From Jiella pacifica (lineage in GTDB: Bacteria > Pseudomonadota > Alphaproteobacteria > Rhizobiales > Rhizobiaceae), in contig NZ_JAAAMG010000013.1 of the NCBI RefSeq assembly GCF_010500815.1, forward strand, positions 1-64,000: a stretch of 64,000 bases of DNA, in the 5' to 3' direction. Position 1 is the stretch's first letter. The number at the start of each line of letters is the position of its first letter. This document shows, one piece after another, positions 23,173 through 39,426 of the stretch. The position numbers and the translations under genes were made by a program. The notes beneath the pieces are model-generated. The model saw only the letters and a list, made by a program, of their open reading frames with translations, was not told the origin of the DNA and did not search any database.

Positions 23173-23247
23173 GCGCCCATCGTCTAGCGGTTAGGACGGC
23201 GCCCTCTCACGGCGCAAACAGGGGTTCGATTCCCCTTGGGCGTACCA
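23173..23247 (+). tRNA. tRNA-Glu (anticodon CUC)
   Basis: The acceptor arm GCGCCCA (23173-23179) pairs with TGGGCGT (23237-23243), the first pair being G-U, followed by A and an encoded CCA ending at 23247. The anticodon stem GCGCC/GGCGC encloses loop CTCTCAC with anticodon CTC at 23206-23208. The T-arm GGGG TTCGATT CCCC is perfect. A plausible promoter (CTTGCG at about 23112, TCTAAG at about 23134) lies upstream, and a 7-bp hairpin (23252-23258 with 23268-23274) just downstream. Confidence 0.97.
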
Positions 23248-23507: not shown

Positions 23508-23822
23508 CTATCCCGGCACGCGAACCTTCAGCCCATCCAATGCGTCAGTGACCGGGATCTGGCAGCCCAGACGGCTTCCCTCGAAGCGTTCGGAGGTGCC
23601 GAATTCGAGCATCTCTTCCTCTCCCTCGGAAATCGGTGGGAGCCGGGGCAAATCGGCGAGGTCGAGGACCACGTGGCAGGTCGCGCACATGCGCGAGCCG
23701 CCGCACTCTCCGACGATGCCTGAGATGTCGTTGGCGACGCCCGCCTGCATCAGGCTCGTTCCTTCGGCAGCCACGACGGTGCGTTCGGTGCCGTCGGCTT
23801 CGACGAAGGTGATCGTGGGCAT
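23508..23822 (-). CDS. 2Fe-2S ferredoxin, adrenodoxin/putidaredoxin type
   Basis: A 104-residue electron carrier. The cluster ligands are C40, C46, C49 and C87 (pattern C-x5-C-x2-C-x37-C), within ECGGSRMCATCHVVLD and RLGCQIP, as in P450-reducing ferredoxins. The start at 23822 is set by AGGAGAAG upstream. It lies 211 bases downstream of the cytochrome P450 gene on the same strand, so it is the natural redox partner. No ferredoxin reductase is encoded nearby, so one must come from elsewhere in the genome. Confidence 0.93.
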   Translation of the reverse strand: MPTITFVEADGTERTVVAAEGTSLMQAGVANDISGIVGECGGSRMCATCHVVLDLADLPRLPPISEGEEEMLEFGTSERFEGSRLGCQIPVTDALDGLKVRVPG

Positions 23823-24032
23823 GATGCTTCTCCTCGACGGAAGGATTTGATGGGCCAAGACGCCTGGACAGTCGTCGTGACGCCGGTTCGCAGATTCTCG
23901 CCCACGCCTCCGCCGTGCCCGCCACCATCGGGGTCGGCTTTGATGAGGTGGTCGTGATCGGCAGGCCAAGGCTGGCGCTTGCCGATCGCCGGACAACCGG
24001 GAGACCGGGGCCGTGCGATCGCACCCCGACGT

Positions 24033-25217
24033 TCAGGCATCCCAGCGGGCGGGCAGGTTCAGCGGGCCGCGGAACACCCAGCCGCCGAAACGCACGGGCT
24101 CACTCTCGTCGAGGCGCAGGTTCTTCAGCCGCGAAAAGAGCGTCGGCAGGGCGATTTCGCCGACCTGCGCCCGGGCCGCCCAGGCGCCGAGGCAGAAATG
24201 CGGGCCGCCGCCGAATGCGATGTGCGGCGCCTTGGGCCGGTTGATGTCGAATCGATCGGGATTTTGGAAGACCGTCTCGTCGCGATTGCCCGCGGCGAGG
24301 ACGACGCCGATGCGTGATCCGGCCGGAAGGGGGATGCCCGCAAGCTCGGTGTCGACCGCCGTCTGGCGCGGATACATGCCGATCGGCGAGACCCAACGCA
24401 CGGTTTCCTCGAAGACCTTGCGCCAGAGGGCCGGATCGGCCTCGACGAGTCGGCGCTGCTCGTCATCGGCGAGGAGGGCGTATGCGCCCGTGGCGATGGC
24501 GTCGCGCGGCTCGTTCAGACCGCCTCCGATGATCACCTTGACGTTGGCGGCGATCTCCTCGCGCGACAGCGGATCGTCGGCATGCAGCATGCAGGAAATC
24601 AGCGACTCGTCCGGGTTGGCCTGAAGATAGGGGATGGCGACGTCGAGCGCGGCGTCGACGCCGGCCGCCGCCTCGTCCGAACGGCGCCAGACCTCCGCAT
24701 CGTCGGCATAGTTGCCGGTCGCGTCCATCATCGCCTGGGACCAGATGCGCAGGTCCTTCTGGTCGACGTCCTTGAGGCCGAGCATGGCGATCAGCGACAG
24801 CGAGGCGCAAGGACCGGCGAAGCGATCGAACAGGTCGACCATGCCGTCCTTCTCGAAGCCATCGATCAACGCGTCGACGATCGCCTGGAAGGTCGGCACC
24901 CACTTGTTCTTCACGACACCCGGCCGCAGCGCCGGCTCGCAGGCGAGGCGCTCGCGGCGATGGGCGGCCCCGTCCTTGCGGATCATCGTGTGGCCCATCA
25001 CCCGGATCATCAGGGAGTTCGCCTCATGGGCGCTGAAGATCTCCGGCTTGCGCTCCAGTTCGACGATGTCGGCATGGCGGGTGACGAGGTAGCGGTTGGC
25101 GGCCGGCACGAAGGCCACGGGCGCTTCGTTCCGCAGTCGCTCGTAGGTCGGGTAGGGATCGTTCCAGAGATCCTCCAGCGCGATCGCAGCGGCAAAATCC
25201 CGGGATATCGTATCCAT
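24033..25217 (-). CDS. Cytochrome P450 with EP-type I-helix; candidate aromatic O-demethylase
   Basis: A 394-residue soluble bacterial P450. The heme loop FGGGPHFCLG (335-344) gives ligand C342, and ExxR is E271-T-V-R274. The I-helix, usually AGxDT, reads GGGLNEPRD (231-239), so the acid-alcohol pair used in oxygen activation is replaced. From memory, the guaiacol O-demethylase GcoA (CYP255A) has a similar GAMQEP segment. It also has similar ends: NPYEVYERLRAEAPLAFVP against this protein's DPYPTYERLRNEAPVAFVP, and GWGFRGP against GWVFRGP. Together with the neighbouring homoprotocatechuate pathway, this suggests demethylation of a methoxylated phenylacetate such as homovanillate. The P450 identity is certain; the substrate is inference. 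Confidence 0.95.
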   Translation of the reverse strand: MDTISRDFAAAIALEDLWNDPYPTYERLRNEAPVAFVPAANRYLVTRHADIVELERKPEIFSAHEANSLMIRVMGHTMIRKDGAAHRRERLACEPALRPGVVKNKWVPTFQAIVDALIDGFEKDGMVDLFDRFAGPCASLSLIAMLGLKDVDQKDLRIWSQAMMDATGNYADDAEVWRRSDEAAAGVDAALDVAIPYLQANPDESLISCMLHADDPLSREEIAANVKVIIGGGLNEPRDAIATGAYALLADDEQRRLVEADPALWRKVFEETVRWVSPIGMYPRQTAVDTELAGIPLPAGSRIGVVLAAGNRDETVFQNPDRFDINRPKAPHIAFGGGPHFCLGAWAARAQVGEIALPTLFSRLKNLRLDESEPVRFGGWVFRGPLNLPARWDA

Positions 25218-25283
25218 GGCGGCCTCCCAACCGTTGTCTCCCGTCCTGCCAGGCGCATCGAAACGCCCGTGGCGGCGGCTTGC

Positions 25284-25296
25284 TTAACATAATAAC
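25284..25296. promoter_or_regulatory. Putative HpaR-type operator, degenerate copy
   Basis: TTAACATAATAAC matches the motifs at 26833-26845 and 31942-31954 at about 10 of 13 positions. It lies 67 bases upstream of the P450 start, in the AT-rich divergent promoter gap. Confidence 0.4.
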
Positions 25297-25333
25297 TATC
25301 CCTATCACTCGTAAAATGGGATTTATCGAACTC

Positions 25334-25346
25334 TAAACTCAGTTTA
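25334..25346. promoter_or_regulatory. 13-bp palindrome before the LysR gene, candidate autoregulatory site
   Basis: TAAACT-C-AGTTTA is a perfect palindrome with a one-base centre. It lies between the divergent P450 and LysR genes, 13 bases before the GTG proposed as the LysR start. Binding by this LysR protein is inferred from position. Confidence 0.4.
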
Positions 25347-25359
25347 ATTGAGCAAGCGC

Positions 25360-26307
25360 GTGAACGTCCGGTTTTCGCTGAGACAGCTGACCTATTTTCT
25401 CGCCGTCGCCGAGCGCGGCTCCGTGCGGGCGGCGGCCGAAGAGTTGAACGTCTCACCGACGGCGCTGACCCAGGCCTTGAACGAGTTGGAGCGGGAACTG
25501 GGCACGGTGTTGCTGCACCGCCAGCGTGCGGTCGGCGCGCGGCTGACCCAGGCGGGCGCCAATCTGGTCGGCCAGGTCCGCACCGTCCTCGATTCTGCCG
25601 CCGATCTGCAGTCGCTGGCCGAGCGCTGGGAGCTCGAGCCCGCCGGATCTCTGGCCGTCGGCTGCGTGTCGACGCTCTCGCCGTTTCTGGCGGCCAGACT
25701 CCTGCGCGGCTTCCAGGACGCCCATCCCGCCATCGCCGTCGATCTGCGGGACGACCGGCACGAAACGCTTCTCGCCGAACTCGAGGAGGGGCGCACCGAG
25801 CTTTCCATCGTCTACGAACATTGTCTCAGCGATCGCTTCGCCCGCGACACGCTGTACCGCATTCGTCCGCACGTCGTGCTGCCCGCCGCCCACTGGCTCG
25901 CCGGACGGCAGGCGGTGTCGCTGCACGATCTGGCCGACGAGCCCTTCATCCTCTACGACGCCGCTCCGGCGGGGGCGAACACCTTGGGCATCTTCGCCCA
26001 TGCCGGCATCTCGCCGCGCATCGGCCGCAGAACGGCGAACTTCGAGTTGGTCCGCTCCTTCGTCGGCGCCGAACTCGGCTATTCCGTCTTGTTGCATCAC
26101 CCGGCCGCCGACGTCACTCATGACGGTGCCCACGTCGTCTGGCGGCCCGTCGCCGAACAGTCGCGGGATTTCGGCGTCGTCCTCGCTTGGCCGCTGAACG
26201 TGCGCCTCAGCCGCAGGGCCGAGGCCTTTCGCAGCCACTGTCGGCGCGAACTGACGGATTTCGAAACCTTTCTTGCAAACCCCAGCCGAAAAGGAACCGA
26301 GGCATGA
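25360..26307 (+). CDS. LysR-family transcriptional regulator
   Basis: A regulator of about 315 residues. An N-terminal winged helix (FSLRQLTYFLAVAERGSVRAAAEELNVSPTALTQALNELERELGTVLLHR) is followed by an effector domain (GSLAVGCVSTLSPFLAARLLRGFQDAHPAIAVDL). Divergence from the P450 gene is the classic layout for control of that promoter. GTG at 25360 is chosen so that the palindromic site stays upstream; a TTG four codons earlier is also possible. Its stop overlaps the ATG of the HpaR-like gene (ATGA at 26304-26307), so the two regulators are co-translated. The effector is unknown, presumably an aromatic acid. Confidence 0.9.
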   Translation: MNVRFSLRQLTYFLAVAERGSVRAAAEELNVSPTALTQALNELERELGTVLLHRQRAVGARLTQAGANLVGQVRTVLDSAADLQSLAERWELEPAGSLAVGCVSTLSPFLAARLLRGFQDAHPAIAVDLRDDRHETLLAELEEGRTELSIVYEHCLSDRFARDTLYRIRPHVVLPAAHWLAGRQAVSLHDLADEPFILYDAAPAGANTLGIFAHAGISPRIGRRTANFELVRSFVGAELGYSVLLHHPAADVTHDGAHVVWRPVAEQSRDFGVVLAWPLNVRLSRRAEAFRSHCRRELTDFETFLANPSRKGTEA

Positions 26308-26807
26308 AGAGAGCCTCAGACGAGGCCGTCGCCTCGTCCCGGGCGGCGCAGACCAGCCGCGGCCGATTGCGCGATTTCTCCCGCTCGCTGCCGATGTCGC
26401 TGCTGCGCGCGCGCGAGGCGGTGATGGGCCATTTCCGCCCCGGCCTTCGCCATTTCGATCTGACCGAACAGCAATGGCGTGTCCTGCGTGCGCTGACGAC
26501 GGTCGAAAGCATCGGCACGATGAATCTGGCCTCGGCGACGTTCCTGCTGCCGCCTTCGCTGTCGCGGATCATCCGCGATCTCGAGGCTCGAGGTCTGATC
26601 GAGCGGTCGAGCGTTGCGGAGGATCTGAGGCGCGGCATGGTCGCGATCAGCCCAACCGGGCGCGATCTGGTCGAGCGGGCCGGCCAGCATTCCGAGGCGA
26701 TCTACGCGGAAATCACCCGGCGGTTCGGGGCCGAGAGGCTGCAGCTGCTGCAGGCGATGCTGAAGGAGCTGGAGGAGGTGCTGAAGGAGCCGATCGAGCC
26801 GAAATAG
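26304..26807 (+). CDS. hpaR: MarR-family regulator, HpaR-like
   Basis: A 167-residue repressor-type protein. The winged helix includes FDLTEQQWRVLRALTTVESIGTMNLASATFLLPPSLSRIIRDLEARGLIERSS. That wording is close to HpaR, the repressor of the homoprotocatechuate operon, as is the C-terminal helix SEAIYAEITRRFGAERLQLLQAMLKELEEVL. The start at 26304 overlaps the LysR stop and discards a 39-codon extension. HpaR is relieved by hydroxyphenylacetates. A candidate operator lies at 26833-26845, 26 bases downstream of its stop and ahead of the transporter operon. Confidence 0.85.
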   Translation: MKRASDEAVASSRAAQTSRGRLRDFSRSLPMSLLRAREAVMGHFRPGLRHFDLTEQQWRVLRALTTVESIGTMNLASATFLLPPSLSRIIRDLEARGLIERSSVAEDLRRGMVAISPTGRDLVERAGQHSEAIYAEITRRFGAERLQLLQAMLKELEEVLKEPIEPK

Positions 26808-26832
26808 GCAGGGATCGGTTGCGGAAGAAATA

Positions 26833-26845
26833 TGAACATGTTAAC
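26833..26845. promoter_or_regulatory. Putative HpaR operator ahead of the transporter operon
   Basis: TGAACATGTTAAC contains the perfect palindrome AACATGTT and matches the site at 31942-31954 at 11 of 13 positions. It lies 55 bases before the binding-protein ATG. Confidence 0.55.
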
Positions 26846-26899
26846 TAACTGCGCGTCGCCGGGCCGGGAGGGCTCGGTTGCCAATCATCGGGAGGAAGC

Positions 26900-28051
26900 A
26901 TGCGCACATTCGCCCTCGCCACGCTCGCAGCCGGGCTTCTCGCCTCGACCGCCGCGAATGCCGAGATCAAGATCGGCGCCATCCTGTCCCTGACCGGCCC
27001 CGCCGCCTCGCTCGGCATCCCGGAAAAGCAGACGATCGACGTCCTGCCGCGGGAGATCGACGGCGAGCCGGTGAGCTACACGATCGTCGACGATGCCAGC
27101 GATCCGTCGGCCGCCGTTCGCGCCGCCGCCAAGCTGATCGAGGAGAACAAGGTCGACGTCGTGCTCGGGCCGTCGGTAACGCCCACCTCGCTGGCCATTC
27201 TGGAGGCGATGGCCAAGGGGGAAACGGTGTTCATCTCGGCCGCCGGCTCGGCAGTGATCGCCAGCCCCGTGGAGGGCCCGAAGAAGTGGGCCTTCAAGCT
27301 GGCGCCGCAGGAGTCCTCTATGGCCCACTACGTCTATGGCAGCATGCAGAAGGCGGGCGACGAGACCGTCGGCTTCATCGGCTTCAACGACGCCTTCGGC
27401 GACAGCTTCATCGGCGCCTTCAAGAAGGAAGCCGAGAAGCGCGGCATCGAGGTGGTTTCCGACGAGCGCTTCTCGCCGCGCGACGCCAGCGTGACGGCGC
27501 AGGCCTTGTCGACCCTGTCGGCCAATCCCGACGCCGTGATCATCGGCGCCTCCGGCACGCCGGGCGTTGCGCCGATCCTGGAGTTGCGCAATCTCGGCTA
27601 CGAAGGCGACATCTACATCAACCAGGGCATGGCCAATCCGGATGTGCTGCGCGTCGGCGGCGATGCCATGAACGGCGTAATGCTGGCGGTCTCGCCGGTC
27701 CTCGTCGCTGAGCAGTTGCCCGAGGAAAATCCAGTCAAGCCCGAAGCGCTGAAATACATCGCCGCCTATGAGGGCAAATACGGCGAGGGTACGCGCAACC
27801 TGTTCGGCGCGACCATCTGGGACGGCTTCAAGCTCGTCGCTGCGGCCGCGGCCGAGGCCAAGCAGGAGGCCGAGCCCGGCACGCCCGAGTTCCGTCAGGC
27901 GCTCCGCGCGGCGCTCGAGAGCCAGAAGGAGCTGGTCGGCGCGCAAGGCGTCTTCAACATGAGCCCGACCGATCACAACGGCACCGATCTGCGCGCCGAA
28001 TCCCTCGTCAGGATCGAGGACGGCAAGTGGGTCTACGTGCCGCTGGAATAG
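26900..28051 (+). CDS. Periplasmic binding protein, branched-chain amino acid/aromatic acid class
   Basis: A 383-residue protein with a signal peptide (MRTFALATLAAGLLASTAANA) and the Peripla_BP_6 fold (EIKIGAILSLTGPAASLGIPEKQTIDV). GGAGG stands just before the ATG. Proteins of this class bind branched-chain amino acids, but several known members bind aromatic acids. The position between hpaR and the hpa catabolic genes makes uptake of 4-hydroxyphenylacetate, homovanillate or a similar compound likely. It is followed by a 283-base gap with two strong hairpins, so it may be expressed above the membrane genes. Confidence 0.9.
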   Translation: MRTFALATLAAGLLASTAANAEIKIGAILSLTGPAASLGIPEKQTIDVLPREIDGEPVSYTIVDDASDPSAAVRAAAKLIEENKVDVVLGPSVTPTSLAILEAMAKGETVFISAAGSAVIASPVEGPKKWAFKLAPQESSMAHYVYGSMQKAGDETVGFIGFNDAFGDSFIGAFKKEAEKRGIEVVSDERFSPRDASVTAQALSTLSANPDAVIIGASGTPGVAPILELRNLGYEGDIYINQGMANPDVLRVGGDAMNGVMLAVSPVLVAEQLPEENPVKPEALKYIAAYEGKYGEGTRNLFGATIWDGFKLVAAAAAEAKQEAEPGTPEFRQALRAALESQKELVGAQGVFNMSPTDHNGTDLRAESLVRIEDGKWVYVPLE

Positions 28052-28067
28052 CCTCGGCGCTGGCTTT

Positions 28068-28128
28068 CTTCACGCCGGCGGCTCGCCGGGGGTGAAGCGT
28101 CTTCCCGCCGCGCCGGGCTTCGCCCGGC
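28068..28128 (+). terminator. Tandem stem-loops at the binding-protein/permease junction
   Basis: Hairpin 1 pairs CTTCACGCCGGC (28068-28079) with GCCGGGGGTGAAG (28084-28096), nearly perfectly. Hairpin 2 is GCCGGGC-TTC-GCCCGGC (28112-28128), a 7-bp perfect stem. There is no T-run. They probably trim or protect the mRNA end and reduce read-through into the permease genes. The rest of the gap (28129-28334) shows nothing further. Confidence 0.6.
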
Positions 28129-28334
28129 CACGCGGTAGGCGGTATCGCCGAAACGGGGCAGGTATTGCGGCGCCTGGCCTGCGGCTGGGGGTGCCTGAGC
28201 CGCAAGATCCTGGAGATCCGCCTGCTCGCCTGGCCCTACGGCCGGGTCCGTTCGAAACACATCATTCTCGCCATGTTGGATGCGCGAGCAGCGGCGGCCC
28301 CGGGCGCCATGCTTCCGCCTCCAGGGGATCGACC

Positions 28335-29375
28335 ATGTCCTATCTCATCGGCGCGCTGCTCGCCCAGGACGGGCTGACCAACGGCGCGATCTATGCGCTG
28401 ATCGCGCTCGCACTGGTGATGGTCTTTTCCGTCACGCGCATCATCTTCATCCCCCAGGGCGAGATCGTCACCTATTCCTCACTGTCGCTCGCGAGCCTGC
28501 AGCAGGGGACGGCGCCGGGCTCGATCTGGCTCATCGTCGCCCTCGGCCTGCTGGCCGCCGGGCTCGAAGGCTTCGGCTACCTGCGCGGCGACCGTTCCAC
28601 CTCGCGGCTTCGGGCGATGGCCGCCTACGGTCTCGTGCCGCTCGCCGTCGCCGCATTGACCTTCGCCACCGCCGGTGCCGGCTTCGGTTTTCTCTGGAAC
28701 ATCGTCCTCGTGCTTCTGATCGTCGTGCCGATGGGGCCGCTGATCTACCGCGTCGCCTTCCGGCCGCTCGGCGATGCGACGGTGCTGCACTCGCTGATCG
28801 TCGCCATGGCGGTGCATTTCGTGCTGCTCGGCTGCGGACTCTTGGCTTTCGGGCCGGAGGGGGTGCGCACGCCGCCGCTGATCGCCGGCCGCTTTCCCGT
28901 GTTCGGCGTGCCGGTCTCGGCCCAGGCGATGGTGGTCGTTGCGGTGGCGATCGTCGCGATCATTGCGATGGCGCTTTATTTCGGCCGCACGCTCTCCGGC
29001 AAGGCGCTGCGGGCGACCGCCTTCAACCGTGTCGGCGCCCGGCTCGTCGGCATCCGCACCGAACAGGCGGCGCGGCTCGTCTTCCTGCTCGCGGGCTTTG
29101 CCGGGGCCCTCTGCGGCATCCTCGTCGCGCCGATCACCACGGTCTATTACGACACCGGCTTCCTGATCGGCCTGAAGGGCTTCATCGCCGCGATCTTCGC
29201 CGGCCTCGCCTCCTATCCGCTGGCGGCCCTCGGCGCCGTGCTGCTCGGCCTGTTCGAGAGCTACTCGTCCTTCTTCGCCAGCCTCTACAAGGATGCGATC
29301 GTCTTTGCGCTGATCATCCCGATCCTGCTCTGGCGGTCGCTGCGTTCCACCCATGTCGAGGAGGACGAGGAATGA
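28335..29375 (+). CDS. LivH-type ABC permease
   Basis: A 346-residue inner-membrane permease. It opens GLTNGAIYALIALALVMVFSVTRIIFIPQGEIVTYSSL, the standard LivH start, and contains the coupling segment RATAFNRVGARLVGIRTEQAARLVFLLAGFAGALCG. It is somewhat longer than the typical 290 because of an extra stretch after the third helix (GYLRGDRSTSRLRAM). The start at 28335 is set by homology; an 81-codon in-frame upstream extension has no family resemblance. It overlaps the next gene by ATGA (29372-29375). Confidence 0.9.
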   Translation: MSYLIGALLAQDGLTNGAIYALIALALVMVFSVTRIIFIPQGEIVTYSSLSLASLQQGTAPGSIWLIVALGLLAAGLEGFGYLRGDRSTSRLRAMAAYGLVPLAVAALTFATAGAGFGFLWNIVLVLLIVVPMGPLIYRVAFRPLGDATVLHSLIVAMAVHFVLLGCGLLAFGPEGVRTPPLIAGRFPVFGVPVSAQAMVVVAVAIVAIIAMALYFGRTLSGKALRATAFNRVGARLVGIRTEQAARLVFLLAGFAGALCGILVAPITTVYYDTGFLIGLKGFIAAIFAGLASYPLAALGAVLLGLFESYSSFFASLYKDAIVFALIIPILLWRSLRSTHVEEDEE

Positions 29376-31144
29376 GCACCCGCAGGATCGCCCTTCTGGT
29401 CTTCACGGCCATCGTCCTCGTCCTGCCCGCCGTCCTTTCGGCCTACGGCCTGACGCTGATGAACTTCATCGGCCTTGCCGCCATCGTCGTCGTCGGTCTC
29501 GTGCTCCTCACCGGCATCGGCGGGCTGACCTCCTTCGGCCAGGCGAGTTTCGTCGGCGTCGGCGCCTATACCACCGCCTGGCTGACGACGGCGGCAGGCC
29601 TCTCGCCGGTGCTGGCGCTGCCGGTGGCGCTGTTCGCCGGCGCGTTCTTCGCCCTCGTCATCGGGGCGGTGACGCTGCGGCTTTCCGGCCACTACCTGCC
29701 ACTCTCGACCATCGCCTGGAGCCTCAGCCTGTATTTTCTCGTCGGCAACGTCGCGGCCCTCGGCGGCCATGACGGCATTCCGGCCGTCCCGCCGATCTCG
29801 CTCTTCGGCTGGGAGCCTTCCGGTCCCGCCTATACCTGGCTGATCGTCGCCGCCGTCGCGCTGTCGCTCCTCACCGTCGCCAATGTTCTCGCCTCGCGCG
29901 ACGGGCGCGCCGTGCGCTGCCTGCGGGGGCGCCGAGTAATGCTGGAGGCCTTCGGCGTCGACACGGCGCGGCTACGCCTCGTCATCTTCGTCCATGCCGC
30001 GGTGCTCGCCGCACTCACCGGCTGGCTCTACGCCCACCTCATCCAGTTCGTGAACGCGACTCCTTTCGGCCTCAACGCCAGCATCGAATATCTCTTCATG
30101 ACGGTGATCGGCGGCTCGGCTCATCTGTTCGGCGCGGTGATCGGCGCCGGGCTGATGACGCTTTTGCGCGACGGCCTGCAGCGGCTCGCGCCTGAACTGG
30201 TCGGCAGCGGCGGCGCCACCGAGATCGTCATGCTGGGCCTCGTCATGGTGGTCCTGCTGCAGACCGCGCCGCGAGGGGTCATGCCTTGGCTGCTGCGGCT
30301 GTTGCCGCCGCGCGGCCGGCCGTGGATGGATCTCGATCGGGCCCGCGCCATCGCGCCTTTCTCGTCCCGACCGAAGCCGGAGCGCGGAACGGAGCTTCTG
30401 ACGGTCGCGGGCGTCACCAAGCGCTTCGGCGGGTTGATCGCGGTGAACGATGTCTCGTTCGACCTCAAGGCCGGCGAGATCCTCGGGCTCATCGGCCCGA
30501 ATGGTGCCGGCAAGTCGACCCTGTTCAATCTCTTGACCGGCATCAGCCCGGCCACCGCCGGCACGATCAGTTTCGCCGGCGAGCGCATTGAGCGCATGGC
30601 CTCGCGCAAGATCGCCCGGCTGGGCGTGGCGCGCAGCTTCCAGCACGTCCTCCTGCGCTCCGACATGTCGGCGCTCGAAAACGTCGCCGTCGGCGCCCAT
30701 CTGCGCTCGACCCGCGGCTATCTCTCGGCGCTGCTTCGCCTCGACCGCCGCGAGGAGGAGAGGCTGCTCGCAGAAGCGATGCGCCAGCTCGACCGCGTGG
30801 GGCTCGCCCATCTCGCTCACGAGCCGGCCGGCAGCCTCGCCCTCGGCCAGCAGCGCATCCTGGAAATCGCCCGGGCGCTCGCCGCCGATCCGGCGCTGCT
30901 TCTCCTCGACGAGCCGGCGGCGGGCCTGCGCTACCGTGAGAAGCAGGAGCTCGCCGCTCTCCTGTCGAAGCTCGGCGAGGAGGGCGTCGCCGTCCTCGTC
31001 GTCGAGCACGACATGAATTTCGTCATGAACCTCGTCGACCGCCTGGTGGTCATCTCCTTCGGCCAGAAGATCTCCGAAGGCGCCCCCACCCACGTCCAGA
31101 ACGACGTCGCCGTCCAGGAAGCCTATCTCGGAGTGGCCGCATGA
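29372..31144 (+). CDS. Fused LivM-type permease and LivG-type ATPase
   Basis: A 590-residue fusion. The first part of about 310 residues is a LivM permease ([42 protein letters not shown], then the coupling region [31 protein letters not shown]). After a linker ([15 protein letters not shown]) comes a LivG ATPase with Walker A GPNGAGKS, signature [15 protein letters not shown] and Walker [12 protein letters not shown]. The final helix, [11 protein letters not shown], is typical of LivG. No stop or frame change separates the parts. Both ends overlap neighbours as ATGA. Such fusions are known among aromatic-acid importers of alphaproteobacteria. Confidence 0.9.
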
Positions 31145-31896
31145 GTGGAACATCGCCAGACACGCCGCTGCTTTGCGTGCGAGATCTCCACGTCTCCTAT
31201 GGGCCCGTCGAGGCCGTCGGAGGCATCTCGCTCGACGTGCCGAGGGGCGCCATCGTTTCGGTTATCGGTCCGAACGGCGCCGGCAAGTCCACGCTTCTCA
31301 ACGCCCTCATGGGGCTGTTGCCATCGAAGGGCCAGGCGACGCTCGACGGCCGCGACGTCGCAGCGATGCCGGTGGAAGACCGGCTGCGGCGGGGCCTCTG
31401 CCTCGTTTCGGAAAAGCGCGAGCTGTTTGCCGAAATGAGCGTCGCCGACAATCTGGCGCTGGGCGCCTATTCGCGGCGGCACGAGCCGAAAGGTGCCGTC
31501 GAAGCCGATCTCGAAGCCGGCTATCAGCGCTTTCCGCGGCTGAAGGAGCGGCGGCACCAGACGGCCGGGACGTTGTCCGGCGGCGAACGCCAGATGCTCG
31601 CCATTGCCAGAGCCCTGATGGCCCGGCCGCAGCTTCTGATGCTCGACGAACCGAGCCTCGGCCTCGCTCCGCTGATCGTTGCCGAGGTGTTGGAAACGGT
31701 TTCCGAGCTTCGCCGAAGCGGCGTCTCCATCCTCATCGTCGAGCAGAACGCCCGGGCGGTCCTGCGGATCGCCGACTACGGCTACGTGCTCGAACAGGGG
31801 CGCATCGCCATGGAGGGCGATGCCGCGACGCTGCTTGCCGACGAGCGCCTGATCCAGACCTATCTCGGCTTCGGCAAAGGCGAGGCGGCGGCCTGA
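31141..31896 (+). CDS. LivF-type ABC ATPase
   Basis: A 251-residue ATPase completing the importer: Walker A GPNGAGKS, signature [16 protein letters not shown], Walker [14 protein letters not shown], and the LivF C-terminus [21 protein letters not shown] (with A before M). The ATG overlaps the fused gene's stop. It is the last transporter gene. A 78-base gap holding an HpaR-like site separates it from hpaF, so the catabolic genes may have their own promoter. Confidence 0.92.
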
Positions 31897-31941
31897 TGAG
31901 GCGCATCGGATTTTGCCCTTGACGAAGCTGCGTGCATATAA

Positions 31942-31954
31942 TTAACACGTTAAC
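31942..31954. promoter_or_regulatory. Putative HpaR operator ahead of hpaF
   Basis: TTAACACGTTAAC has arms TTAAC and GTTAA around AC, and shares 11 of 13 bases with the site at 26833-26845. It ends 20 bases before the hpaF ATG. Confidence 0.55.
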
Positions 31955-31974
31955 AAATGGACGGTACGACTTCC

Positions 31975-32373
31975 ATGCCTCACCTCACCATCGAACATTC
32001 GGCCAATCTCTCGCAGCGAGCCGATCTTCAGGCGCTCTGCGCCGAGTTGAAGGATGCCCTGCTTGAGACCGGGCTGTTCGAGATCGGTGCGGTGCGTGTC
32101 CGGGCGATCGCCTGCGAGGCCTATGCCATCGCCGACGAACGGCCCGAAAACGCCTTTCTCGACATGAGCCTGCGCATGGGGGCAGGGCGCAGCGGCGAAG
32201 ATAAGAAGCGCATCGGCGAGGCCCTGTTCTCTGCGGCGGAGCGGCGGCTGAAGCCGCTCTTTGCCGAGCCGCATTTCGCGCTGTCGCTGGAAGTGCGGGA
32301 GATCGATCCGGCTCTCAGCTGGAAGAAGAACGCCATGCATGCCCGGCTGCGGACGCCGGCTCGGGAAGGCTGA
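31975..32373 (+). CDS. hpaF: 5-carboxymethyl-2-hydroxymuconate delta-isomerase (HpaF)
   Basis: A 132-residue tautomerase of the CHMI type that isomerises 5-carboxymethyl-2-hydroxymuconate in homoprotocatechuate breakdown. The start at 31975 is fixed by mechanism: it gives M-P-H-L-T-I-E, so removal of Met exposes the catalytic Pro1, whereas the ATG six codons upstream would bury it. The C-terminal region (FLDMSLRMGAGRSGEDKKRIGEALF, then FALSLEVREIDPALSWKKNAMH) matches the family. It is the first gene of the catabolic block. Confidence 0.93.
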   Translation: MPHLTIEHSANLSQRADLQALCAELKDALLETGLFEIGAVRVRAIACEAYAIADERPENAFLDMSLRMGAGRSGEDKKRIGEALFSAAERRLKPLFAEPHFALSLEVREIDPALSWKKNAMHARLRTPAREG

Positions 32374-32493
32374 AGAAAGCCCGCGGCTGCGGATGGCTGG
32401 CGGGCGGTCGTCGTCCGCCGCTGTCCGGGCCTGGCGGAACAAGGCGGAGATCGACGCTTCCGTCGGCGGCCGCAACGGACGAAGGACCACGTG

Positions 32494-34011
32494 ATGAGCG
32501 ATTTCGACACCCATCTCGCCAAGGCCGAGCGCCATCTGGCAAGGTTCAGCGAAGGCATCGTCGCCAACCAGATCGGCGGCGAGGCGGTCGAAGCAGCGGA
32601 CGGCGAAACCTTCGAGACGATCTCGCCGGTCGATCTGAAGCCGCTGGCGCGCGTCGCCCACGGCAAGACGGCGGACGTCGACCGGGCGGCCAAGGCGGCG
32701 AAGGCGGCGTTCCCGGCCTGGGCGGCGATCTCGGGCGACGAGCGCAAGAAGATCCTCCACAAGGTCGCCGACGCCATCGTCGCACGGGCCGAAGAGATCG
32801 CCCTCGTCGAATGCATGGACACCGGCCAGGCCTGGCGCTTCATGTCGAAGGCGGCGCTGCGCGGGGCGGAGAACTTCCGCTTCTTCGCCGACAGGGCGCC
32901 AGCCGCACGTGACGGCGCCTCGCTTCGGACGACGGGCCAGATCAACGTCACCACCCGCTCGCCGATCGGCCCGGTCGGGGTGATCACCCCCTGGAACACG
33001 CCGTTCATGTTGTCCACCTGGAAGATCGCGCCGGCGCTGGCGGCGGGCTGCACCATCGTCCACAAGCCGGCCGAGTTCTCGCCCCTGACCGCCCGTCTCC
33101 TCGTCGAGATCGCCGAAGAGGCCGGCCTTCCGAAAGGCGTCTGGAACCTCGTCAACGGCTTCGGAGAGGATGCCGGCAAGGCGCTGACCGAACATCCGGA
33201 CATCAAGGCCATCGGCTTCGTCGGTGAAAGCCGCACCGGCTCGATGATCATGCGCCAGGGCGCCGACACCCTGAAGCGGGTGCATTTCGAGCTCGGCGGC
33301 AAGAATCCGGTGATCGTCTTCGCCGACGCCGATCTCGACCGCGCCGTCGATGCGGCGGTCTTCATGATCTACTCGCTCAATGGCGAGCGCTGCACCTCGT
33401 CCTCGCGGCTTCTGGTCGAGGCACCGATCTATGACGCGTTCGTGGGCAGGGTTGCGGAAAAGGCGAAGGCGATCAGGATCGGCCATCCGCTGGACCCCGA
33501 AACCGTCGTCGGCCCGCTGATCCATCCGGTGCACGAGAAGAAGGTGCTCTCCTATTTCGACGTCGCCCGGCAGGAGGGAGCGACGATCGCCGCGGGCGGC
33601 GAAAAGGTCCAGGGGCCAGGGGGCGGCTGCTACGTCGCGCCGACGCTGTTCACCGGCGTGTCGAACGACATGCGCGTCGCCCAGGAAGAAATCTTCGGCC
33701 CGGTCTTGTCGGCGATTTCCTTCAAGGACGAACAAGAGGCGCTCGAGATCGCCAATGACGTCGACTACGGCCTCACCGGCTATCTCTGGACTTCCGACGT
33801 CACCCGCGCCTTCCGCTTTTCCGATGCGCTCGAAGCCGGGATGATCTGGGTGAACTCCGAGAACGTCCGCCACCTGCCGACGCCCTTTGGCGGGGTGAAA
33901 AGCTCGGGCATCGGCCGCGACGGCGGCGACTGGTCCTTCGACTTCTACATGGAAACCAAGAACGTCGCCTTCGCGACGTCCGCCCATCGCATCCCCAAGC
34001 TCGGCGGCTGA
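32494..34011 (+). CDS. hpaE: 5-carboxymethyl-2-hydroxymuconate semialdehyde dehydrogenase (HpaE)
   Basis: A 505-residue NAD-dependent aldehyde dehydrogenase oxidising the ring-cleavage product to the diacid. The nucleotide site GVITPWNTPFMLSTWKIAPALAAG, glutamate loop FELGGKNPVIVF, nucleophile cysteine in NGERCTSSSRLLV, and EEIFGPVLS are all present. Position between hpaF and hpaD gives the specific assignment. ATG at 32494 is chosen because GAAGGA precedes it; GTG immediately upstream is possible. Confidence 0.93.
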   Translation: MSDFDTHLAKAERHLARFSEGIVANQIGGEAVEAADGETFETISPVDLKPLARVAHGKTADVDRAAKAAKAAFPAWAAISGDERKKILHKVADAIVARAEEIALVECMDTGQAWRFMSKAALRGAENFRFFADRAPAARDGASLRTTGQINVTTRSPIGPVGVITPWNTPFMLSTWKIAPALAAGCTIVHKPAEFSPLTARLLVEIAEEAGLPKGVWNLVNGFGEDAGKALTEHPDIKAIGFVGESRTGSMIMRQGADTLKRVHFELGGKNPVIVFADADLDRAVDAAVFMIYSLNGERCTSSSRLLVEAPIYDAFVGRVAEKAKAIRIGHPLDPETVVGPLIHPVHEKKVLSYFDVARQEGATIAAGGEKVQGPGGGCYVAPTLFTGVSNDMRVAQEEIFGPVLSAISFKDEQEALEIANDVDYGLTGYLWTSDVTRAFRFSDALEAGMIWVNSENVRHLPTPFGGVKSSGIGRDGGDWSFDFYMETKNVAFATSAHRIPKLGG

Positions 34012-34097
34012 CTGCCGGGACGATCGAAGACTTTTCAGGCGGTTGGATCGCGTCGGTCCGCGCGTCCAGCCGCTCCGCCAGCCGGGAGGAAACCGTC

Positions 34098-35078
34098 ATG
34101 CCCATACCCAAGCCGCAACTCTATCCCCCGTTCAACATCGTCCGCCTGAGCCATGTCGAGCTTCTGGTCACCGATCTCGGCAAGTCGCGCGCCTTCTACG
34201 TCGACACGCTCGGCCTGCAGGTCACCGACGAGACGAGCGATGTGATCTATCTGAGGGCGCTCGAGGAGCGCGGCCATCACTGCATCGTCCTGCGCAAGGC
34301 CGCGGCGGGCGAAGCGCGGCACCTCGGTTTCAAGGTCTTCGACGAGGAGGATCTCGACCGGGCGGCGGCGTTTTTCGGGGGGCGGGAGCTTCCGGTCGAG
34401 TGGGTTGAGCGGCCCTATCAGGGCAAGACCTTCCAGACCCGCGACCCGCAGGGCATTCCGCTGGAATTCTACTGCAAGATGGACAGGCTGCCGCCGATCC
34501 ATCAGCAATATGCGCTCTACAAGGGCGTGAAGCCGCTGCGCATCGACCATTTCAACGTCTTTTCGCAGAATGTCGACGAGGCGGTCGCCTTCTACAACGA
34601 GATCGGCTTCCGCGTGACGGAATATACCGAGGACGAGGAAAGCGGCCGGCTCTGGGCGGCCTGGGCGCATCGCAAGGGCGGGGTCCACGACATCGCCTTC
34701 ACCAACGGCCGCGGCCCGCGGCTGCACCATACCGCCTTCTGGGTGCCGACGCCGCTCGCCATCATCGACCTTCTCGACCTGATGTCGACCACAGGCTGGT
34801 TGCAGAACATCGAGCGTGGCCCCGGTCGGCACGGCATCTCCAACGCCTTCTTTCTCTATGTCCGCGATCCCGACGGCCACCGGATCGAGATCTACTGCTC
34901 GGACTACCAGACGGTCGACCCCGATCTCGAACCGATCAAGTGGGACCTCAAGGATCCGCAGCGCCAGACGCTCTGGGGGGCTCCGGCGCCGCGCTCCTGG
35001 TTCCATGAAGGCTCGCTGTTTTCCGGCGCGGAACTGACCGATTCCGATCTCGCCGCCCAGCCGATCATCGCCCCTTGA
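34098..35078 (+). CDS. hpaD: 3,4-dihydroxyphenylacetate 2,3-dioxygenase (HpaD)
   Basis: A 326-residue type I extradiol dioxygenase that opens homoprotocatechuate. It contains four vicinal-oxygen-chelate modules. Probable metal ligands are H151 (in RIDHFNVF), H210 or H211 (in RLHHTAFWVP) and E264 (in GHRIEIYCSDYQT). The C-terminal lid DLKDPQRQTLWGAPAPRSWFHEGS matches the Brevibacterium and Arthrobacter HPCD/MndD class, not the LigB-type HpaD of E. coli. Metal (Fe or Mn) cannot be predicted. GGAGG precedes the ATG. Confidence 0.95.
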   Translation: MPIPKPQLYPPFNIVRLSHVELLVTDLGKSRAFYVDTLGLQVTDETSDVIYLRALEERGHHCIVLRKAAAGEARHLGFKVFDEEDLDRAAAFFGGRELPVEWVERPYQGKTFQTRDPQGIPLEFYCKMDRLPPIHQQYALYKGVKPLRIDHFNVFSQNVDEAVAFYNEIGFRVTEYTEDEESGRLWAAWAHRKGGVHDIAFTNGRGPRLHHTAFWVPTPLAIIDLLDLMSTTGWLQNIERGPGRHGISNAFFLYVRDPDGHRIEIYCSDYQTVDPDLEPIKWDLKDPQRQTLWGAPAPRSWFHEGSLFSGAELTDSDLAAQPIIAP

Positions 35079-35100
35079 GATGGCCGACGAAGGAACGATC

Positions 35101-35982
35101 ATGACGGCACGGCTCCTCAGCTTCATCGCCGGCGGAAAACCCGGCTACGGCCTCGCCAGGGACGGTGGCATCGTCGACCTCTCGGCCCGGCACGGCAGCG
35201 AGTGGCCGGACCTTCGGGCCGTGATCGAGGCCGGCGCGGTCGACAGGCTGGTCGCGGCGGGCGAGGCGCTGTCGCCCGACATGGCGGAAGCCGACGTCGG
35301 TTTCGACATCCCGGTGCCGAATGCCGAAAAGATCATCTGCGTCGGGGTGAACTACCCGGATCGCAATGGCGAGTACAAGGACGGCCAGGAAGCCCCGCCC
35401 AACCCCTCGCTGTTTCCCCGCTTCGCCCGGTCCTTCGTCGGCCATCAGGTGCCGCTGACCCGGCCGAAGGCCTCCGAGCAGCTCGATTATGAGGGCGAGG
35501 TGGTCATCGTCATCGGCAAGGCGGGGCGCCATATCCCCGAAGCCCACGCCCTGTCCCACATTGCCGGACTCAGCCTCTGCAACGAAGGCACGCTGCGCGA
35601 CTGGGTGCGCCACGCCAAGTTCAACGTCACCCAGGGCAAGAACTTCGACGGCAGCGGCGCCATCGGTCCGTGGTTCGTGCCCTTCACCGGCGAGGATCAG
35701 ATCGCCGACATCGAACTGACGACCCGGGTGAATGGCGAGTTGCGGCAGAGCGACCGGACGTCGCGGATGATCTTCCCCTTCGCCAAACTCATCGCCTACA
35801 TCTCCACCTTCACGACGCTGGTTCCCGGCGACATGATCGTCACCGGAACGCCGACCGGGGCTGGCGCCCGGCTCGACCCGCCGGTGTGGCTGAAGCCTGG
35901 TGACATGGTCGAAGTCGCCGCCACCGGGCTCGGCACGTTGGTCAACGGTGTGCGAGACGAAGGCGAGGGGGGCGCTGCATGA
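35101..35982 (+). CDS. hpaG: Fumarylacetoacetate hydrolase-family HpaG (single domain)
   Basis: A 293-residue FAH-fold enzyme for the 5-oxo-pent-3-ene-1,2,5-tricarboxylate decarboxylation and/or isomerisation step. Metal ligands appear in DYEGEVVIVIGK. KNFDGSGAIGPWFVP and GDMIVTGTPTGAGARLDPPVWLKPGD are diagnostic. E. coli HpaG is about twice this length, being two tandem FAH domains. Here only one is present, so one step may fall to this protein with HpaF or to a distant gene. The start at 35101 follows GAAGGA; Met at 35080 is less likely. It overlaps hpaH by ATGA. Confidence 0.88.
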   Translation: MTARLLSFIAGGKPGYGLARDGGIVDLSARHGSEWPDLRAVIEAGAVDRLVAAGEALSPDMAEADVGFDIPVPNAEKIICVGVNYPDRNGEYKDGQEAPPNPSLFPRFARSFVGHQVPLTRPKASEQLDYEGEVVIVIGKAGRHIPEAHALSHIAGLSLCNEGTLRDWVRHAKFNVTQGKNFDGSGAIGPWFVPFTGEDQIADIELTTRVNGELRQSDRTSRMIFPFAKLIAYISTFTTLVPGDMIVTGTPTGAGARLDPPVWLKPGDMVEVAATGLGTLVNGVRDEGEGGAA

Positions 35983-36785
35983 CGTTGCGGGACGAAGACG
36001 TCGCCCGGATGGCCGCAGAACTCTTCGAGGCCGAGCGGACGCGAAGCCAGATCCCACTGCTCAGCCAGCGCTTTCCGCAGGCCGGTCTCGCCGAGGCCTA
36101 CAAGGTCCAGGGCGCGCTGGTGAAGCTGAAGGAATCGGCCGGGCGGGTGCGAAAAGGCTGGAAGATCGGCCTCACCTCCAAGGCCATGCAGGCGGCGCTG
36201 AATATTGCGACGCCCGATTCCGGCGTCCTCTTCGACGACATGGTCTTTGCCGACGGCAGCCGCATCCCCGCCGGTCGCTTCATCCAGCCGCGGGTCGAGG
36301 CCGAGATCGCCTTCGTCATGAAGGCGCCGCTCGAAGGGCCGGGGGTGACGTTGTTCGACGTCCTCAACGCCACCGACTACATCGTGCCGGCGCTGGAAAT
36401 TCTCGACACCCGCGTCGTGCGTGCCGACCCCGTCACCGGCAAGGCGCGGACGATCTTCGACACCGTCGCCGACAACGCCGCCAATGCCGGCATCGTCATG
36501 GGCGGCCGGCCGGTGCGCCCGCTCGAGGCCGACATGCGCTGGATCGGCGCGATCGTCTCTCGCAATGCCGAGGTCGAAGAAACCGGGCTCGGCGCGGGGG
36601 TGCTCAACCATCCCGGCACCGGCATCGTCTGGCTCGCCAACCGCCTTGCCGAATACGGCTCCAAGATCGCGGCCGGCGAGGTGGTCCTGTCCGGCTCCTT
36701 CATCCGGCCGATCGAGGCGCGCCATGGCGACACGATCACAGCCGATTTCGGCCCCTACGGCTCGGTGAGCCTTCATTTCGAGTGA
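35979..36785 (+). CDS. hpaH: 2-oxo-hept-4-ene-1,7-dioate hydratase (HpaH)
   Basis: A 268-residue hydratase adding water to the decarboxylated intermediate. Family landmarks are [17 protein letters not shown], the metal-binding pair in [23 protein letters not shown] with the third acidic ligand, and [13 protein letters not shown]. The length equals the usual 267 residues. The ATG overlaps hpaG (35979-35982), so translation is coupled. Homologous hydratases act in the catechol meta pathway; the neighbouring hpa genes make HpaH the fitting assignment. Confidence 0.94.
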
Positions 36786-36789
36786 GCCC

Positions 36790-37590
36790 ATGCCCGCACC
36801 GATCAACATCTTCAAGCAGCGCCTGAAAAGCGTCGATCCGCAGATCGGCCTGTGGGTGGCGTTGGCCAATCCCTATTCGGCGGAAGTGGTCGGCGGGCTC
36901 GGCTTCGACTGGCTGCTCGTCGACGGCGAGCACGCGCCCAACGACCTGCCGCTCGTTCTCGCCCAGCTTCAGGCGCTGGCGAACTCGACCTCCTCGCCTG
37001 TCGTACGCCTGCCGATCGGCGAGACGTATCTGATCAAGCAAATGCTCGACATCGGCGCCCAGACGCTGCTGATCCCGATGGTCGAGAGTGCCGAGCAGGC
37101 GCGCCAACTGGTGCGCGCGACGCGCTATCCGCCCGATGGTGTGCGCGGCGTCGGCGCGGCGCTGGCCCGGGCGTCAGCCTTCAACCGCATCGCCGACTAT
37201 CTGCCGACGGCCAATGCCGAGATCTGCCTGATCCTCCAGATCGAGACGGTGAAGGGCCTCGCCGCGATCGAGGACATTGCGGCCGTCGACGGCGTCGACG
37301 GCCTGTTCATCGGCCCCTCGGACCTTGCCGCCGACATGGGCCATCTCGGCAATCCCGTCCATCCGGATGTCCGGGCGGCGGTCGACGACGGGCTGAAGCG
37401 GATCAAGGCGAGCGGCAAGGCGGCGGGCACGCTCGCCACCACCCCCGACTTCGCCGACGCCGTCCTGGCGCTCGGCGCCGACTTCGTCGCCGTCGGCACG
37501 GACGTCTCGCTGCTGATGCGCGGCGGGACGGAGCTTCTGCGGCGGTTCAGGAGCGAAGGTGGGGAGCCGGGCAAGGGCGGCGGCTACTGA
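36790..37590 (+). CDS. hpaI: 4-hydroxy-2-oxoheptanedioate aldolase (HpaI)
   Basis: A 266-residue class II aldolase cleaving the hydrated product to pyruvate and succinate semialdehyde. It begins with [34 protein letters not shown], which has the catalytic His in GEHAPND. The loop [17 protein letters not shown] and the metal pair in LQIET...[10 protein letters not shown] follow. Last gene of the pathway block; no succinate-semialdehyde dehydrogenase follows, so that product must be handled elsewhere. A long gene-free stretch comes next. Confidence 0.95.
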
Positions 37591-38499: not shown

Positions 38500-39426
38500 T
38501 CATCCGCCGAGTTGCATCCACCTGTCGCAGAGCCAGTCGAGGGCTTCGTTCGCTTCCGGGATCAGCGCCGACAGGGACAGGAAGCCGTGGATTTGCCCCG
38601 GCCAGCAGCGGACGCTTGCACGGCTTTCGGCTTCCAGTCTCGCGGCATAGGCCGCGCCTTCGGAATAGAGCACGTCGTGGCCCGCCAGGATGACGGCAGC
38701 CGGGGCGATACCATGAAGAGACGGTGCCAGGAGCGGGGCGGCGAGCCAGTCCTGCCAGGCTTCCGGCGTCGGCAGGTAGTGCGAGCGGAACCAGGCCATT
38801 TCCCGGGCTGACAGGCCAAAGCCTTCGGCGAAGCGACGGAAGCTCTCGCCGTTCTGGGCCTGGTCGGTGTTCGGATAGATCAGGAGCTGCGCCGCAATGG
38901 CCGGGGCCGCGCCGTCCTTCGCCAGGAGGGCGAGGACGGCGGCGAGATTGCCGCCGGCGCTGTCGCCGCCGACGGCGATCCGCGCCGGATCGACGGCGAG
39001 GGTGTCGGCCTTCTCGTGCAGATGGCGGAGAGCTGCCACGCAGTCCTCGATCGCGCCGGGGAAGGGCGTTTCGGGCGCCAGCCGGTAGTCCGGCGCGATC
39101 ACGACGGAGCCTGTCCGGTTGGCGATGCGCCGGCAGATCTCCTCGTGGGATTCGATCGCGCCGATGACCCAGCCGCCGCCATGGAGATAGAGCAGGGCCC
39201 GTCCGCCCGAACGCGGCGCGCCGTGGCCGCGCCAGATCTTGACGCGCAAGCCCTGCCAGCTTTCGACAGTCGCTTCCGCGACCTCCTCATGGGGCAGTTG
39301 CAGGGCGGCGTAACCCTGATCGTACTGGAGGCGGGCCGCTTGCGGCGTCAGATCCGCCAGCGACGGAGCACCGGCCTCGGCCATGACACGCAGCGCGGCG
39401 GCGGCGGATGCGTCGAGGCCGCTCAT
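38500..39426 (-). CDS. Alpha/beta hydrolase, hormone-sensitive-lipase class
   Basis: A 308-residue cytoplasmic esterase-type enzyme. The oxyanion motif is HGGGWVIG, the nucleophile elbow GDSAGG, and the catalytic histidine lies near the end in GQIHGFLSL. It is the second gene of a minus-strand pair, starting inside the stop of the Gfo/Idh/MocA gene (ATGA at 39423-39426), so the two are co-translated. In this setting it could release a sugar or sugar acid from an ester or lactone, but the substrate is unknown. Confidence 0.9.
   Translation of the reverse strand: MSGLDASAAAALRVMAEAGAPSLADLTPQAARLQYDQGYAALQLPHEEVAEATVESWQGLRVKIWRGHGAPRSGGRALLYLHGGGWVIGAIESHEEICRRIANRTGSVVIAPDYRLAPETPFPGAIEDCVAALRHLHEKADTLAVDPARIAVGGDSAGGNLAAVLALLAKDGAAPAIAAQLLIYPNTDQAQNGESFRRFAEGFGLSAREMAWFRSHYLPTPEAWQDWLAAPLLAPSLHGIAPAAVILAGHDVLYSEGAAYAARLEAESRASVRCWPGQIHGFLSLSALIPEANEALDWLCDRWMQLGG

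Follow-up and report, generated by a model that had tools for sequence, protein, structure and literature searches.

Class I bacterial cytochrome P450 systems consist of a P450, a [2Fe-2S] ferredoxin and a flavin adenine dinucleotide (FAD) reductase. Two described P450s are close to the one considered here. GcoA (CYP255A) has the three-domain reductase GcoB as its partner and not a ferredoxin, and CYP1232A24 from Arthrobacter sp. (PDB entry 6g71) is said, in a 2019 paper in J Biochem on how Arthrobacter metabolises papaverine, to demethylate both homovanillate (4-hydroxy-3-methoxyphenylacetate) and 3,4-dimethoxyphenylacetate to 3,4-dihydroxyphenylacetate. The last compound is the substrate of HpaD in the known hpa (homoprotocatechuate) meta-cleavage pathway, in which hpaR accompanies hpaF-E-D-G-H-I. 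HpaD requires a vicinal diol, and for a single demethylation to yield one, the starting compound must be homovanillate or the isomer with a 4-methoxy group. Here, we analyse a stretch of 64 kb from Jiella pacifica (contig NZ_JAAAMG010000013.1, positions 1 to 64,000, referred to as the window), in which a P450 gene (24033–25217, reverse strand) and a ferredoxin gene lie beside a set of hpa genes.

The initial annotation of the window had suggested that the P450 is a homovanillate O-demethylase, arguing from kinship to GcoA and from the apparent lack of hpaBC. This is the best-supported reading and is probably right, although the argument originally given for it is only partly so. The P450 is likely to be the O-demethylase of homovanillate, or of a very close methoxyphenylacetate, because CYP1232A24 is its closest structure and because of its position in the tree, its linkage to the hpa genes, a palindrome shared by the promoters concerned and the absence from the genome of any VanA_C match over the cut-off.

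Family, fold and pocket of the P450

The P450 (394 aa) has 6g71 as its best sequence match in the PDB (E 1.3e-120), followed by GcoA chains (about 4e-55). An AlphaFold model built from 28 sequences (pLDDT 95.2) has as its first fold match 6g71, 'Structure of CYP1232A24 from Arthrobacter sp.' (TM 0.92, 47 % identity), and ranks 2–21 are GcoA or SyoA entries, which were crystallised with methoxyphenols. Over aligned columns the identity to 6g71 is 47.6 %, and that to GcoA is 34 % (33 % by fold comparison). Under the CYP naming convention, ≥40 % amino acid identity denotes the same family and >55 % the same subfamily. This places the window P450 in CYP1232, outside the subfamily CYP1232A and outside the CYP255A group of GcoA. 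In a tree of 42 rows it groups with 6g71 (fork 90/91), and GcoA lies across a branch supported at 100/99. The resemblance to GcoA that had been noted initially is therefore real but second to that of 6g71, and the P450 is ruled out as a GcoA orthologue by its identity of ~33 % and by the separate clade. What it shares with GcoA and SyoA is the P450 fold, Glu-Pro in the I helix and a conserved FRGP near the C-terminus, and the chemistry is likely to be the same. The GcoA-like clade is represented in Mesorhizobium sp. RMAD-H1 by a second P450 (L004:17350–18537; QEPG, 43 % identical to GcoA), which shares its locus with a CYP1232-like P450 and has genes for an aldehyde dehydrogenase and an APC permease as neighbours.

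The I helix of the window P450 reads GGGLNEPRD, as first described, and NEPRD is also found in 6g71. NEPR is present in 35 of the 42 rows, QEPG in six (the GcoA group) and neither in one. P450cam has Asp-Thr at the position where both groups carry Glu-Pro. Hence, the altered AGxDT is a trait of these groups and is not peculiar to the window P450.

At the contact positions of GcoA, the window P450 (M74, G231 and P283) and 6g71 have in common Met for F75, Gly for L244 and Pro for T296, and a small residue replaces F169 in both (Thr in the window P450, Ala in 6g71). The GcoA chain compared was the F169S variant, and the wild-type Phe was taken from passages of PMC6628648, which also state that a smaller residue at F169 lets syringol in. 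According to passages of PMC6628648 and PMC6021390, GcoA does not accept vanillate or ferulate, and those of PMC6021390 add that carboxylates such as vanillate preclude binding or demethylation by GcoA.

The hpa cluster, its palindrome and related loci

The arrangement reported in the initial annotation, namely a P450 and a putidaredoxin-type ferredoxin divergent from a LysR gene that overlaps hpaR, was confirmed. The LysR-type regulator gene (25348–26307) and all of the genes that follow as far as hpaI are on the forward strand, and the LysR stop codon overlaps by 4 bp the ATG (26304) of hpaR (26304–26807), which encodes a MarR family protein. Between hpaR and hpaF lies a branched-chain-amino-acid-type ABC importer (26900–31896; binding protein, permease and LivF-like ATPase) that had escaped notice and is presumed to take up aromatic acids; a further permease/ATPase between these was placed by comparison with the Agrobacterium leguminum plasmid locus (L087). 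The catabolic genes are hpaF (31957–32373; 5-carboxymethyl-2-hydroxymuconate isomerase), hpaE (32491–34011; semialdehyde dehydrogenase), hpaD (34098–35078; 3,4-dihydroxyphenylacetate 2,3-dioxygenase), an hpaG-like gene for an FAA hydrolase family isomerase/decarboxylase (35080–35982), hpaH (35979–36785; 2-oxo-hept-4-ene-1,7-dioate hydratase) and hpaI (36790–37590; 4-hydroxy-2-oxoheptanedioate aldolase).

In profile searches, HpaR (NCBIfam), HpaI, HpaE, HpaH and HpaD all exceed curated cut-offs. The remaining two members of the set, which had been taken to be complete, are recognised by Pfam: HpaF (CHMI/HpaF) scores 100 bits against an NCBIfam cut-off of 215, and HpaG, a single-domain FAA hydrolase, 158 bits against 276, both being above their Pfam cut-offs. 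Compared with the known hpa pathway, hpaBC is unlinked here, HpaG is single-domain, and the cluster additionally contains a P450, a ferredoxin and an ABC importer.

When importer promoters of six linked loci (listed below) were aligned, TGAACATGTTAA or a close form was found in all six. Within the 64 kb, TTAACRTGTTAA occurs at ≤2 mismatches in only three places: as a degenerate copy (two mismatches) in the P450/LysR intergenic region (25284–25295), a putative HpaR site; upstream of the importer (26833–26844; one mismatch), where a one-mismatch copy is present in 6/6 linked loci; and, as the perfect palindrome TTAACGTGTTAA, just upstream of hpaF (31942–31953). These amount to six strand matches against 0.32 expected, and none of 100 shuffles reached six, a figure that overstates the surprise for the importer and hpaF sites, as the motif was found by looking and these sites suggested it. 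One-mismatch sites are also present at the start of hpaB in three genomes: that of J. pacifica itself, where hpaB is on another contig (L068:8555), Aurantimonas (L007:17358) and G508 (L103:1490). As the hpaR gene is beside the palindrome sites, HpaR is the natural candidate to bind them. The occurrence of the palindrome at the cluster promoters and at the remote hpaB suggests that one HpaR regulon feeds a single ring-cleavage route through two inlets.

Matches to the P450 were found at E 1e-60 in 12 of 385 genomes of the class and at E 1e-100 in 10 of 121 genomes of the family sample, and 261 plasmid records match at E 1e-30. Those with ≥70 % identity are few, namely L003, L004, L005 and L007 among 48 loci, G411 (the Aurantimonas genome once more), G508 and one plasmid (H1, 70.4 %). 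The six loci compared were those of the window, Jiella pelagia (L003), Aurantimonas (L007/L097/L098), Mesorhizobium (L004), Aquabacter (L005) and the A. leguminum plasmid (L087). They were chosen for linkage, and the counts thus characterise this group and do not amount to an independent test. The divergent LysR gene and the importer are present in all six, hpaR in five (none detected in L087), one or more hpa catabolic genes in five (none found in 21 kb of L005), the ferredoxin in five (not L007) and the reductase in four. In J. pelagia, hpaD and hpaE each match in two pieces (L003:183–2700), perhaps owing to sequencing errors, and the completeness of that genome is 84 %. An enterobacterium, Citrobacter sp. 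18056, has a LysR gene, a P450 (58 % identical to that of the window), a ferredoxin and a reductase (L006:8933–12779), and no hpa gene was found within the 21-kb stretch.

The window cluster is flanked on the ferredoxin side by a tRNA-Glu (23173–23247), possibly an insertion boundary. A hormone-sensitive-lipase-type esterase gene (38500–39426) adjoins hpaI on the opposite strand.

Alternative substrates, redox partners and HpaBC

A number of points weigh against homovanillate as the substrate. The chief weak link is the activity of CYP1232A24: it matches the pathway adjoining the window P450, but is taken here only as reported, and the names CYP1232 and CYP1232A24 were not found in the literature searched. 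The 6g71 branch is long and its fork is under 95, making its exact position in the tree unsure, and 47 % identity leaves room for a different substrate. In the pocket, the window P450 and 6g71 differ at GcoA V241 (V228 and Met, respectively) and A295 (Y282 and Val). Ala at 169 is also found in 5/5 GcoA-like alphaproteobacterial rows, so this position is no mark of the function and does not separate the groups. P450s that are 50–63 % identical, on Rhodococcus and Rhizobium plasmids, are accompanied by a ferredoxin and a reductase and adjoin other catabolic genes with no full hpa set. Their neighbours include a LigB-type dioxygenase in L088 and a VOC-family protein in L090 and L092, with no recognised dioxygenase in L089, and this variety means that belonging to the clade is not enough to settle which substrate is used. 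As to the palindrome, the P450-promoter copy is degenerate and is present at ≤2 mismatches in only three of the six linked loci (window, L003 and L007), which are the most alike, and not in L004, L005 or L087; at three mismatches the excess in the window is weaker (11 against 5.3 expected, with 6 of 100 shuffles reaching 11). Finally, a dedicated reductase is lacking, and to be active in the cell the P450 needs a different one.

On the Rhodococcus opacus (L088) and R. pyridinivorans (L089) plasmids, the P450-ferredoxin-reductase sets are near genes for an FAA hydrolase and a carboxymuconolactone decarboxylase, and the related P450 is perhaps wired to a different ring-cleavage route there.

The differences at positions 228 and 282, the varied catabolic neighbours within the clade and the reported, unconfirmed action of CYP1232A24 on dimethoxyphenylacetate would also suit an enzyme that acts mainly on another phenylacetate (3-hydroxy-4-methoxy-, 3,4-dimethoxy-, or 3- or 4-methoxyphenylacetate), with homovanillate as a minor substrate. 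We regard this as unlikely, given that HpaD needs a vicinal diol, which one demethylation supplies only from homovanillate or the 4-methoxy isomer.

The only redox partner gene beside the P450 encodes the putidaredoxin-type [2Fe-2S] ferredoxin (23508–23822, reverse strand). Read from the ATG at 23822, the protein has 104 aa, with Cys at 40, 46, 49 and 87; the longer frame in the list of open reading frames, from the TTG at 23996, extends into the 210-bp gap (23823–24032) between the two genes. Its best PDB match is 4ltu, a ferredoxin (1e-25), and the second is putidaredoxin (E 2e-24). In J. pelagia, the genes for the P450, an FAD reductase (415 aa, putidaredoxin-reductase-like) and the ferredoxin are in a row. 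The window can be aligned to this locus as far as the P450 stop, and the alignment resumes at the ferredoxin start. Between these points the 210 bp replace about 1.4 kb, and the gap is the site of the reductase gene in J. pelagia, Mesorhizobium and Aquabacter. A nucleotide-level search of the gap for remnants of the reductase gene, against the regions around the P450 in five relatives, gave no same-strand blastn match at E 1e-3. The absence of the reductase gene had gone unnoticed; the locus has the ferredoxin of a class I system and no dedicated reductase, a 45 % reductase homologue being unlinked (contig C34, 102691–103908). At the Aurantimonas locus neither a reductase nor a ferredoxin was found, and the best ferredoxin homologue in Aurantimonas (52 % identical) lies on the same contig at a distance of about 144 kb. 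Another reductase is present in each of three genomes (43–46 % identical to the J. pelagia cluster reductase and 70–82 % to each other), and we infer that this conserved, unlinked reductase now serves the P450.

The lack of the reductase gene here, and the fact that neither partner was found at the Aurantimonas locus, might instead signify decay, the P450/ferredoxin pair being no longer productive. This is improbable, as the P450 has an unbroken frame and shares 91 % identity with each of its two close relatives, the ferredoxin cysteines are intact and the other reductase persists in each of the three genomes.

No hpaBC was seen in the window, as had been stated at the outset, but the genome includes two HpaB-family genes above the Pfam cut-off, on contigs C12 and C30. 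The C12 hpaB has a gene for an AraC-type regulator on one side and, on the other, one for a flavin reductase resembling HpaC. Both members of this pair score below the NCBIfam equivalog cut-offs (HpaB, HpaB-2, 762 against 885 bits; HpaC, 152 against 206), and likewise the Aurantimonas HpaB (767 bits). Orthologues of the C12 hpaBC are within about 8 kb of the P450 gene in Mesorhizobium sp. RMAD-H1 (L004) and Aurantimonas sp. VKM B-3413 (L007); in J. pelagia, hpaB is distant from the P450 gene (1.03 and 3.47 Mb). Among ten genomes of the genus, the P450, hpaD and C12-type hpaB are each found in two, which are the same two, one being the genome studied here and the other G508, whose coordinates are those of J. 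pelagia. The shared genomes and the linkage in relatives indicate that the P450 travels with hpaBC and is not its stand-in, and it was rejected as an hpaBC substitute. Hydroxylation of 4-hydroxyphenylacetate to 3,4-dihydroxyphenylacetate by the P450, the alternative put forward initially, would suit HpaD and the lack of hpaBC beside the window hpa genes, and the C12 scores leave it some room, but it is improbable given the HpaB/HpaC-like pair with the same palindrome at its start, the proximity of hpaBC orthologues to the P450 in two related genomes and the identity of the nearest solved structures, CYP1232A24, GcoA and SyoA, the latter two crystallised with methoxyphenols.

In Aurantimonas, genes for a copper amine oxidase and for a permease of the amino-acid type separate the P450 from hpaBC (L007:12473–16188), suggesting phenethylamines (tyramine, methoxytyramine) as a further feed into the same pathway in that organism. 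A copper amine oxidase that could act as such a feeder was not found in the J. pacifica genome.

Besides hpaBC, a vanAB-type homovanillate demethylase elsewhere in the genome had been named as a possible competitor. No VanA_C match reaches the cut-off, the sole match scoring 21 bits against 23.5, and a VanA-type oxygenase was set aside on this basis. The search, which recovered matches in 4 of 14 control genomes, covers the VanA type, and other demethylase types, e.g. tetrahydrofolate-dependent, fall outside it.

Proposed route and its meaning

If the P450 is a homovanillate O-demethylase, homovanillate would enter via the linked ABC importer and be hydroxylated by the P450 at its methyl carbon, the hemiacetal collapsing to formaldehyde and 3,4-dihydroxyphenylacetate, the ring of which HpaD would open. 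Electrons would pass from NADH to an unlinked FAD ferredoxin reductase, then to the cluster ferredoxin and the P450. The P450 would be controlled by HpaR and the LysR protein, and HpaR would also control the importer, hpaFEDGHI and the remote hpaBC. Methoxylated and unmethoxylated phenylacetates would enter a single ring-cleavage route via two inlets. A fuller picture, which we offer tentatively and hold to be slightly more doubtful than not, is that one HpaR regulon serves two parallel homoprotocatechuate inlets, HpaBC for 4-hydroxyphenylacetate and the CYP1232-type P450 for homovanillate, and that in this lineage the P450 has shed its redox partners to differing degrees and now draws electrons from a general reductase. 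The series in that picture runs from J. pelagia, with both partners kept, through the window, with the ferredoxin only, to the Aurantimonas locus, with neither.

Passages of PMC9811514 describe the formation of homovanillate from lignin by Rhodococcus, and passages of PMC9867520 report that homovanillate did not support the growth of the Rhodococcus strains tested there, although these carry VanAB. This leaves a place for a route through a P450. Among the papers listed in literature searches, titles and abstract openings pointed to no genetic route by which a P450 demethylates homovanillate in Gram-negative bacteria, and to nothing on this system. Judged from its genes, the system is probably a Gram-negative member of the CYP1232 kind, an enzyme type already known from Arthrobacter. 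It differs from CYP1232A24 in having an alphaproteobacterial host, an hpa cluster with HpaR and no dedicated reductase at the locus. Its newness is mainly in this setting: the hpa cluster, the palindrome that is also found at hpaBC and the lost dedicated reductase.

A P450 wired to an hpa cluster offers a direct, deletable test of such a homovanillate route, and the enzyme is a candidate biocatalyst for lignin-derived phenylacetates. Together, the loci form a small natural series for the study of how P450s change their redox partners.

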